Below, one piece after another: positions 13,192 through 40,323 of a stretch of DNA of 44,165 nt (its first letter is position 1; every line of letters starts with the position of its first letter). The stretch spans positions 1-44,165 of the forward strand of contig JAHELV010000003.1 in assembly GCA_024644015.1 (NCBI GenBank), given 5' to 3'. Below the pieces are notes generated by a model. It ran no database searches. It was not told the origin of the DNA and saw only the letters and a list, made by a program, of their open reading frames with translations. This stretch comes from Nitriliruptorales bacterium. Lineage in GTDB: Bacteria; Actinomycetota; Nitriliruptoria; Euzebyales; JAHELV01. The position numbers and the translations under genes are program-made.

Positions 13192-14576
13192 AGAGCCGGA
13201 AGCCACAGCGCCTGGCACCGGGACGGTACGGAGCGGTCCACCGAGCGCAACGGCAGCAAGCGGCGGACCACCTCGGGCAGCGGCCGGCCCAACCGGCGGC
13301 CCGACCCCGACACCACGGTGCCATCGGAGCGCTCGAAGACAACGATCGCGTCGGGACGCGCCGCCAGGTGGTCGCGCACGTTGCGTTCGGGTACCGCCCA
13401 CCGCGTGCCGACGTACTGCGCGAGCTCCTCGTCGCTCGTCGCCGTCACGCGGACATACTCCGCGGCCGCGAGCGCCGACATCGACGGGACCACCAGGTGG
13501 TTCGTGCGCCCGTCCACCGTGACGAGATTGGCGTACATGTTCCACCCGAACGCGGTCTTGACGCCGACGTACGGCAACACGCCGTTGAGCGCGACGAGGA
13601 GCACGAGACCCGCAGCGGCCAGGTCAAGCCGGCCGAGGCGCTGCACGGCCGCACCCCGGACCCCGCGCAACGCCAGCCACACGACCGCAGCACCCAGCGG
13701 CACCCACAGCACGAAGACGATCAGTCCGATGAGGACCAGGCTCACGATGTTGCGGGGGACGACGGCCGCCACGATGAGGACGGCCCAGAAGGCGCACACG
13801 ATGGCGACCGTGCGTGGGCGGCGGAGCATCCAGTTGCCGACCGGCCGGGTGACAGCAGCGCCGGCGAAGACCGCCAACCCGACGAAGATCACTGCCGTGA
13901 AGTCGTAGAAGTGCTGCGCGAGGTCGAGCGATATGACGTAGTGAAACCCGGCGGCCAGGGCGACGCCGGCGGCGCGTGTCCGCGGGATCGCCAGCAGGAC
14001 GGGTACCGACAACTCGATCAGCAGGGCCGCGGCGATCGGAACCGCGGCGAGCACGGTGCCCGCAGGCAGGGACGGCAGTCCCCACGACCGCAGCCCCTGA
14101 TCGGCGTAGAAGACCGCACACGACGTCGCCGGGTCGAGGAACGCCGTGTTCAGCTTGGCGAACGCGGCGAAGGCGTAGAACGTTACGAAGCTGACGCCGA
14201 CCGCGGTCGCCAGCCACGGCCATGGCTCCATCCGCGGCAGTGCCAGCAGGACCGCGACCGAGAAGAAGCCCATCAGCACCCAGTGGTTGCCGACAACGGG
14301 TGCCTCGAGCCACACGGTCCACAGTTGGAGCAACGCGACACCGGCCCACAGCCAGCGCTTCGCCGGCCACCACACCAGCGCGAGCGCGGTCGCGCCGAGC
14401 GCCAGCGTGACGATGCCGCGGGTGTCGAGCCCCACCGCCGGATTGCCGACGATGTGGGCGGCGACAGCCAGCGCGAAGAACGCGGCGAACCACCGCGGCG
14501 CCGGTGCGGCGGGCGATCGCGCGGCGTGCGGCGCACCGACCGACACCTCCGTTGCGCGTGCGGCTTCCAGGCCCAT
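13188..14576 (-). CDS. Polytopic membrane protein, HTTM (VKD-carboxylase-like) domain candidate
   Basis: The 462-aa protein has about ten to twelve hydrophobic segments and a hydrophilic C-terminal tail of about 110 residues. The segment F-A-A-F-A-K-L-N-T-A-F-L-D-P-A-T-S-C-A, between helices, resembles the HTTM domain of vitamin-K-dependent gamma-carboxylase homologues and related MauE/DoxX-like membrane proteins. Function is not known. The ATG at 14576 is chosen for its strong GGAGGAG ribosome binding site; an upstream frame extension has none. It is convergent with the ASST-like lipoprotein, and the two stop codons share a CTAG at 13188-13191. Confidence 0.7.
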   Translation of the reverse strand: MGLEAARATEVSVGAPHAARSPAAPAPRWFAAFFALAVAAHIVGNPAVGLDTRGIVTLALGATALALVWWPAKRWLWAGVALLQLWTVWLEAPVVGNHWVLMGFFSVAVLLALPRMEPWPWLATAVGVSFVTFYAFAAFAKLNTAFLDPATSCAVFYADQGLRSWGLPSLPAGTVLAAVPIAAALLIELSVPVLLAIPRTRAAGVALAAGFHYVISLDLAQHFYDFTAVIFVGLAVFAGAAVTRPVGNWMLRRPRTVAIVCAFWAVLIVAAVVPRNIVSLVLIGLIVFVLWVPLGAAVVWLALRGVRGAAVQRLGRLDLAAAGLVLLVALNGVLPYVGVKTAFGWNMYANLVTVDGRTNHLVVPSMSALAAAEYVRVTATSDEELAQYVGTRWAVPERNVRDHLAARPDAIVVFERSDGTVVSGSGRRLGRPLPEVVRRLLPLRSVDRSVPSRCQALWLPAL

Positions 14577-38868: not shown

Positions 38869-39096
38869 TTGCCGAAGTCCAAGTCGAAGCGCTCGTCCTA
38901 CATCCCGCCCAAGCCACCGAAGCCTGCGCCGAGCCCCCGTTGGGTGCCGGTCACCGGCCTGTCACTGATCGGCCTCGGGACCGTGCTGCTGATCGTGATC
39001 TACCTCATCCCGGGCCTGCCGGGCGGCAACATCAACCTCATCATCGGCTTTGTGATGTTGGCCGGTGGCCTCGTGGCGCTCAGCCGTTGGCGCTGA
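38869..39096 (+). CDS. crgA: CrgA cell-division protein
   Basis: The 75-aa protein has the CrgA layout: a basic N-terminus (P-K-S-K-S-K-R-S-S-Y), a Pro/Lys-rich segment (P-P-K-P-P-K-P-A-P-S-P-R-W), then two membrane helices (about residues 27-48 and 53-70) joined by P-G-L-P-G-G-N-I-N. CrgA recruits FtsI, FtsQ and Wag31 to the division site in actinobacteria and restrains FtsZ in Streptomyces. The start is TTG at 38869 with GGAG about 6 bases upstream. The usual DUF881 neighbours of crgA are absent here. Confidence 0.92.
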   Translation: MPKSKSKRSSYIPPKPPKPAPSPRWVPVTGLSLIGLGTVLLIVIYLIPGLPGGNINLIIGFVMLAGGLVALSRWR

Positions 39097-39151
39097 CCGA
39101 ACGTCGCGTCGGCGGGCGTATTGGAACTCCACGCGTGAGATTTCCCCAATG

Positions 39152-39216
39152 TTGTACACAGGTGTGGATAACTCGTGTGACAATGTTTCCACATAGTTAT
39201 CCACAGGTGTGGACCG
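39152..39216. promoter_or_regulatory. Cluster of DnaA boxes in inverted pairs
   Basis: Perfect TTATCCACA boxes lie at 39163-39171 (minus strand) and 39197-39205 (plus). Near matches are TTGTACACA at 39152-39160 (7/9), GTTTCCACA at 39185-39193 (7/9) and a minus-strand CGGTCCACA at 39208-39216 (6/9). Boxes 1-2 and 4-5 form two inverted pairs with a GG spacer, sharing the 12-mer CACAGGTGTGGA at 39157 and 39202, 45 bases apart. The stretch 39140-39205 is clearly AT-richer than its surroundings. It may bind DnaA as a titration, reactivation or origin-related site. Confidence 0.7.
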
Positions 39217-39217
39217 C

Positions 39218-39559
39218 TCATCGCTGGTCCGGGAGCCGTTCCCGCAGGATCTCGACGCGCTCGCGCATTCGTTCTCCACAGTGCCGTGGCGGCGACTCGG
39301 TTCCCCGGGCCAGCAGCAGCACCTCCGCGCCGCAGCCGGCGCACCAGTAGGTGACGCGTTCGAGCGTCGGATCGACCGGGGCAGGATCGCCGTCCGGGAT
39401 GTGCGCCGCGCCCTGCTGCAACGACAGCAGCGACCCCAGACCGAACCACAGGATCCCAATGCCGAGCAGTGGTGCGAACACGTACGCGGCGGGCACGTCG
39501 GTCGTCACCGTGACCAGGGCGGCGAGCAGCACGGCGACCAGGAACAGCCTGCGAGGCAT
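39218..39559 (-). CDS. Small membrane protein with C-terminal zinc-ribbon-like cysteines
   Basis: The 113-aa protein has two hydrophobic segments (about residues 4-20 and 23-42) and a soluble C-terminal part with C-A-G-C-G and a later H-C-G-E-R-M, suggesting a Cys/His metal-binding knuckle. I do not recognise a named family. GAGAGGA precedes the ATG at 39559. The gene ends 2 bases from the DnaA-box cluster and is divergent from the DedA gene. Confidence 0.65.
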   Translation of the reverse strand: MPRRLFLVAVLLAALVTVTTDVPAAYVFAPLLGIGILWFGLGSLLSLQQGAAHIPDGDPAPVDPTLERVTYWCAGCGAEVLLLARGTESPPRHCGERMRERVEILRERLPDQR

Positions 39560-39642
39560 CGGTCGTCCTCTCTTTCGGTCGCCGTGCAACAGTACCGTCG
39601 CGGCGTAGGTGTCTGGTCGCGGCGTTCGGGTACTCGACACAC

Positions 39643-40323
39643 GTGATCGCCCAGCCCGCACTGCAGGCCACGCCGCTAATCCTTGCGGCGAGCAGCGCCG
39701 ACGGCGAGCTGACCGGCCTGGTCGGCTGGGTCGCGAACGTCATCGACACCCTCGGCGCCATCGGTGTCGGACTGCTGACGCTTGCCGAGGTGTTCTTCCC
39801 GCCCATTCCGAGCGAGTTCGTGCTCCCCATGGCGGGGTACCTCGCGGGCCGCGGACGGCTCGGCCTGGCAGCGGCGCTGATCGCATCGACCATCGGCGCC
39901 ACGGTTGGCGCCGTCGGGCTGTACTGGCTCGCTCGCGCGTGGGGAATCGACCGGGTCCGCGCGCTGCTCGCGTCGATGCCGCTCATGGAACCGAGCGATC
40001 TCGACCGCGCGGAACAGTGGTTCGCCCGACACGACCGCGCGGCGGTGCTGATCGGCCGCCTGGTGCCTGGGGTACGCAGCCTGATATCGCTGCCGGCCGG
40101 GTTCCAACAGATGCCGTTGGGGCTCTTCGTGCTGCTCACGGCTGTCGGCAGTGCGGCGTGGAACACCCTGCTGCTTTTCGGCGGCTACGCGCTGGGCAGC
40201 CAATGGCGATCGATCGGCCGGTACTCCGACTGGCTCAATCTGGCGGTCGTCGTGGTGCTGATCGGTGCGGTCGGCAAGTTCGTGTGGTCCCGTCGCGACC
40301 GCATCTCGATCTTCGGGGGCTGA
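39643..40323 (+). CDS. DedA-family membrane protein
   Basis: The 226-aa protein has the DedA signatures E-V-F-F-P-P-I-P-S-E-F-V-L-P-M-A-G-Y-L-A-G (about residues 49-69) and G-R-L-V-P-G-V-R-S-L-I-S-L-P-A-G (about 139-154), with four to five membrane segments. Family members act in proton-driven lipid transport, including undecaprenyl-phosphate recycling, so a cell-envelope role fits the neighbourhood. It starts at a GTG with no obvious ribosome binding site. Confidence 0.88.
   Translation: MIAQPALQATPLILAASSADGELTGLVGWVANVIDTLGAIGVGLLTLAEVFFPPIPSEFVLPMAGYLAGRGRLGLAAALIASTIGATVGAVGLYWLARAWGIDRVRALLASMPLMEPSDLDRAEQWFARHDRAAVLIGRLVPGVRSLISLPAGFQQMPLGLFVLLTAVGSAAWNTLLLFGGYALGSQWRSIGRYSDWLNLAVVVVLIGAVGKFVWSRRDRISIFGG

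Follow-up and report, generated by a model that had tools for sequence, protein, structure and literature searches.

The stretch of DNA analysed here, 44,165 nucleotides from a Nitriliruptorales bacterium and referred to as the window, carries a compact cluster of DnaA boxes immediately downstream of crgA. We hold with moderate confidence that this cluster binds DnaA as an element outside oriC, that it is ancestral to the Actinomycetota, and that, lying near the origin at the 3' end of crgA, it tunes the availability or the nucleotide state of DnaA and is neither a promoter nor an origin. Extra-oriC clusters of DnaA boxes are a known kind of element, and the mycobacterial site discussed below is already published. 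What appears to be new, judging from a search of one open-access library, is the conservation beside crgA in most of the sampled actinobacterial families, the geometry of the boxes and a second palindrome. Little is known outside well-studied species about how DnaA is restrained or recharged, and a site kept beside crgA in most sampled families implies a shared control point for this protein.

Organization of the cluster

The gene for the cell-division protein CrgA (38869–39096, forward strand) was recognized by its match to the Pfam family CrgA (PF06781, E = 8e-12) and in a phylum-wide search. Convergent with it is a zinc-ribbon-like gene (39218–39661, reverse strand, start putative), named for a CxxC...HC motif in its translation; the product had no match in Pfam. 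The stop codons of the two are separated by 121 bp (39097–39217) with a GC content of 54%, compared with 69% for the contig. Within this intergenic region, and 3' of the crgA stop codon, the boxes extend over about 77 bp as two modules of three, each consisting of an outer box, 3 bp, a second box, 2 bp (GG), and an inverted box (starts 39140/39152/39163 in module 1 and 39185/39197/39208 in module 2).

Module 1 comprises a weak outer box, ATTTCCCCA (39140–39148, forward, 6/9), which is invariant in all four genomes of the genus, the box TTGTACACA (39152–39160, forward, 8/9), read from the sequence, and a perfect TTATCCACA (39163–39171, reverse) that stands head-to-head with the 39152 box across the GG. 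Module 2 repeats this arrangement with the outer box GTTTCCACA (39185–39193, forward, 7/9; identified from the sequence and the genus alignment), a perfect TTATCCACA (39197–39205, forward) located by pattern search, and CGGTCCACA (39208–39216, reverse, 7/9), which faces the 39197 box across its own GG. The 12-mer CACAGGTGTGGA occurs in both modules (39157–39168 and 39202–39213), at an offset of 45 bp. GC content falls to 45% over 39140–39216, and the 60-bp window with the lowest GC content of the whole 123-kb contig (40%) starts at 39140. The initial annotation had described two perfect and three weaker boxes in 65 bases of locally AT-rich DNA, two inverted pairs with a GG spacer, and a 12-mer shared at 45-base spacing, and it was accurate on each of these points. 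A model with four boxes was tried and rejected, as mostly only three score and the fourth is usually weak. One extra TTCTCCACA, at 39272, lies outside the cluster and within the zinc-ribbon reading frame. Within the genus, both modules are retained, but they are separated by as little as 13 bp or as much as 75 bp.

Rarity in the genome and distance from the origin

Pattern searches of the 4.0-Mb draft genome, by which clusters were also counted, found six perfect copies of TTATCCACA, two of them in the crgA cluster; the remaining four are single boxes. By our own arithmetic, two of six randomly placed sites would be expected within 50 bp of one another about 4e-4 times, which bears out the earlier estimate that chance occurrence of two such neighbors is low. 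The sequence TTRTCCACA occurs 20 times and, across the genome, boxes matching in at least 8/9 positions are no more frequent than matches to the reversed-motif control (511 versus 503).

The 123-kb contig contains only three box clusters: the crgA site, one between dnaA and dnaN, and one upstream of dnaA. The dnaA-dnaN cluster, which had been predicted to lie several kb away, was located at 51959–52309 of the contig, 12.7 kb from the crgA cluster; it has six boxes, weaker than those of the crgA site. GC skew along the contig is too weak for placing the origin, with a local minimum at ∼52 kb and the contig minimum at 24.5 kb. The third cluster, outside the window (contig C10:53682–53778; L015 13682–13778), has the same head-to-head pair as the crgA site (TCCACAGCTGTGGA), and many genomes have such a pair again in front of dnaA. 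A further box cluster common to the genus (L193 4527–4785, on its own contig C64, and L195 2927–3185) lies between a forward-strand reading frame and a convergent gene, the product of which contains MSDPFGGGFDPRMFEQVPLFRELAKVM.

Conservation downstream of crgA

Loci of ∼3 kb around crgA were gathered from relatives and from the whole phylum (140 genomes, 39 families), and boxes were binned by distance from the crgA stop codon, with the reversed motif as a control of equal base composition. At least one box of 8/9 or better lies within 400 nt past the stop codon in 108 of 137–138 genomes, compared with 6–12 of 137 in other 400-nt windows, and two boxes within 60 bp occur in the first 400 nt of 82 of 137 genomes, compared with 0–2 in other windows. 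The perfect TTRTCCACA was counted 89 times in the first 400 nt and three times elsewhere in the loci (reversed motif, 2); for boxes of at least 8/9 in the first 400 nt, the figures are 290 and, for the reversed motif, 22. Genomes within a family are not independent, and the number of families with at least one box near crgA, 29 of 39, is the safer figure. The cluster had been proposed to fail if its boxes were not conserved in close relatives; they are kept, and far beyond the genus. On the best reading of these sequence comparisons, the cluster downstream of crgA would be ancestral in the Actinomycetota.

No box of 8/9 was found near crgA in 30 of 138 genomes, among them every sampled genome of families f44, f50, f51, and f55. 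Elsewhere in family f55, an inverted box pair lies upstream of a dnaB-like helicase gene (L198 3131–3238) and resembles what has been reported for dnaB of M. tuberculosis. Inverted pairs were also noted just upstream of an nrdR-like gene (L196 3341–3369) and a dnaE-like gene (L197 2995–3015), in one genome each.

The distance between crgA and dnaA ranges from 11 to 129 kb (median 23 kb, 63 genomes) and, where the crgA site is present, from 11 to 117 kb. A position 3' of crgA and within this range of dnaA suggests that the site matters for itself and for its own early replication. It could be argued instead, from its having the strongest boxes and the lowest GC content of the contig, that the cluster belongs to the origin as an outlying part or is itself a second origin. 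However, oriC lies between dnaA and dnaN, where the crgA site does not, and the separate six-box cluster 12.7 kb away, the variable distance to dnaA, and the mere 121 bp of the region make this earlier suggestion of an extended origin highly improbable.

The mycobacterial counterpart

Rv0011c of Mycobacterium tuberculosis is crgA (PMC3989709), and the Rv0010c-Rv0011c intergenic region is bound by DnaA, as demonstrated by IDAP-seq and EMSA (Hicks et al. 2020, PMC7738170). DnaA of this organism pulls down five regions, namely oriC, Rv0010c-Rv0011c, the dnaB upstream region, Rv3843c-RVnc0040, and rpmH-dnaA, and the same five were recovered by ChIP-seq in Mycobacterium smegmatis (PMC7738170). As in the window, the M. 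tuberculosis boxes occupy the intergenic region directly 3' of crgA, a gene that Hicks et al. do not name. There are differences: the next gene is the co-directional Rv0010c rather than a convergent zinc-ribbon gene, and the window, unlike M. tuberculosis, combines two modules with a palindrome in degenerate form only. Hicks et al. saw no obvious correspondence of the site in other species (PMC7738170). The phylum survey supplies the correspondence that the discoverers of the M. tuberculosis site could not find. Phylum-wide conservation and DnaA occupancy in mycobacteria (PMC7738170) thus give good support to the earlier suggestion that DnaA has a site here apart from oriC.

The site is recurrently mutated in clinical isolates of M. 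tuberculosis. Mutants of the site form longer cells and phenocopy dnaA mutants, a phenotype that the authors liken to reduced DnaA activity, and their rate of replication initiation is described as unchanged (PMC7738170). Given this unchanged rate, the M. tuberculosis data do not establish that the site acts simply by titration. The survey provides an evolutionary context for this DnaA site, at which mutations change the length of the cells.

By binding in the gap between crgA and the next gene, DnaA might also serve as a transcriptional roadblock or terminator, stopping read-through and insulating both genes. In E. coli, DnaA is capable of blocking transcription, and the genes in the window converge with no intrinsic terminator predicted in the intergenic region. 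Yet the site is kept in mycobacteria despite the co-directional Rv0010c, expression of Rv0010c and Rv0011c is unchanged in dnaA mutants of M. tuberculosis (PMC7738170), and a roadblock needs neither head-to-head and tandem boxes nor proximity to the origin; we regard it as unlikely. The idea of a DnaA-regulated promoter, raised in the initial annotation, fits poorly in view of the convergence of the window genes, the co-directional mycobacterial neighbor, and the unchanged expression of both flanking genes. A scan for promoters of the sigma-70 type found none in the intergenic region. Location 3' of crgA with either orientation of the neighboring gene, together with the variable distance to dnaA, argues against both a promoter and a part of the origin. 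An RNA element was considered and rejected: there was no Rfam match, and folding of the intergenic strand was within ∼1.5 S.D. of shuffled sequences.

Box geometry and DnaA as the probable ligand

The dominant box pairs at crgA sites are convergent with an offset of 11/12 bp (gap of 2–3 bp) or tandem with an offset of 12 bp; divergent pairs are scarce. Different families share the arrangement of a head-to-head pair plus a third, tandem box. It is also seen upstream of dnaA, where pairs are convergent at 11/12 bp and tandem at 12 bp, but not in oriC; the oriC regions of 41 genomes do not contain the 11-bp convergent pair. The strict pattern TCCACA-N2/3-TGTGGA occupies only 0–4 places per genome and, in our reading of the coordinates, the recurrent places are of two kinds, one downstream of crgA and the other a few hundred bp before the part of dnaA that encodes the AAA+ domain. 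Boxes are nearer to consensus at crgA than in oriC (28% versus 14% perfect), and TTATCCACA accounts for 25 of 137 crgA-site boxes as against 4 of 174 in oriC.

The same pair at the dnaA promoter, a known site of DnaA autoregulation, the match to the consensus, and the intact GRDHTTVIHA in domain IV of the window organism's DnaA together point to DnaA as the ligand, and on these grounds we infer that it binds the crgA cluster in this organism. In actinomycetes, domain I of DnaA dimerizes head-to-head (PMC13270200), an arrangement that would go well with boxes facing each other.

Possible titration or reactivation

In the mechanism that we favor, DnaA would occupy the head-to-head pairs, each of which has a third box in tandem at its side, and the element would tune DnaA availability or nucleotide state soon after duplication of the origin region. 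Tuning would be by sequestration, as proposed for datA and for clusters in Streptomyces and Bacillus, with DARS-like remodelling possibly added. Clusters of DnaA boxes near oriC reportedly repress untimely initiation in Streptomyces coelicolor (Smulczyk-Krawczyszyn et al. in 2006, as cited in reviews) and are said to do so in Bacillus subtilis (Okumura et al. in 2012, likewise); both share with the crgA site their nearness to oriC, although B. subtilis belongs to a different phylum from the window organism. The E. coli datA is, like the crgA site, a non-coding box cluster outside oriC, and its region contains one convergent pair at 12 bp. Together with IHF, datA promotes hydrolysis of the ATP carried by DnaA. 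It needs an IHF site and a cluster of 262 bp (review), whereas the crgA site spans ∼77 bp and has no known bending partner.

The alternative, in which ADP-DnaA would lose its nucleotide on the head-to-head boxes and the element would reactivate DnaA instead of sequestering it, draws on the E. coli K-12 DARS1 and DARS2 cores. In these, as at crgA, one box opposes two tandem boxes with a tandem offset of 12 bp start to start. The likeness of the M. tuberculosis site mutants to dnaA mutants of reduced activity (PMC7738170) and the domain I dimer (PMC13270200) are also in keeping with reactivation. On the other hand, facing boxes in DARS1 and DARS2, as read from their sequences, are 14 bp apart rather than 11/12 bp, no IHF or Fis partner is known for the crgA site, and the E. 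coli elements are mid-arm, far from oriC (17.5 and 64 min), whereas the crgA site is near the origin. Purely DARS-like action is therefore a doubtful, if genuine, possibility. A datA- or DARS-like element, as first suggested, is still the best-fitting class, with the DARS topology present at crgA and the DARS box spacing absent. For the cluster itself we infer a titration or nucleotide-switching function; this may be datA-like titration or inactivation, or DARS-like reactivation.

A second palindrome beside the boxes

Alignment of the modules revealed a palindrome, AATTACACNNGTGTAATT, adjoining the boxes. At a threshold of at least 11/16, it is present in 72 of 138 genomes, whereas shuffled sequences reach that score in 10 of 690 cases and upstream controls in 1 of 138; this excess is somewhat flattered by the consensus having been drawn from the same genomes. 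In many families, its center is 7–8 bp away from the first box, and the partner boxes follow at 18–20 and 30–32 bp. In the window, a palindrome scan found a degenerate copy (39125–39142, 12/16) that abuts module 1. Of 80 named mycobacterial loci, 74 have the palindrome at 14/16, M. leprae included, and ∼65 combine it with boxes at +88 (8/9) and +111 (perfect). Near-matches number 0–4 per genome and are recurrent at crgA.

In M. tuberculosis, an IS6110 site (GAATC, 13624–13628) and a palindrome 65 bp upstream of Rv0010c have been published, the latter read as two DnaA-box-like sequences (PMC7738170). Judged by spacing in mycobacterial relatives, both would fall on AATTACACNNGTGTAATT and not on the perfect box. 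The consensus matches the DnaA box at 5/9 at most, which does not support, but does not contradict, the two-box reading. The open-access library yielded no relevant paper on the palindrome.

Alternatively, the motif could serve first of all as an operator for some other dimeric regulator, with DnaA in a secondary role. HigA2, whose binding is relevant here, is a toxin-antitoxin regulator, and its presence throughout the phylum would not be expected. In vitro it binds ATCAC-Nx-GTGAT in the same M. tuberculosis intergenic region (PMC11205783), and the frequency of AATTACACNNGTGTAATT beside the boxes is in line with such an operator; however, DnaA binding has been demonstrated directly at the mycobacterial site (PMC7738170), and the paired boxes not only agree with the consensus for DnaA but also turn up again upstream of dnaA. 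We consider this operator reading quite improbable. Within the extra-oriC DnaA element that we prefer, the other factor may nonetheless matter as much as DnaA, and the survey predicts a second binding factor, for AATTACACNNGTGTAATT. We tentatively suggest a composite element inherited from the ancestor of the Actinomycetota, in which a head-to-head three-box module for DnaA is combined with a fixed-phase AATTACACNNGTGTAATT read by another factor; at crgA this might link DnaA activity to cell division, and the palindrome half would, by its coordinates, be the hot spot of clinical mutation in M. tuberculosis. Two mycobacterial genomes have a near-perfect copy of the palindrome ∼3.3–3.6 kb upstream of dnaA (G096:C1:5962790 and G126:C1:1416820).
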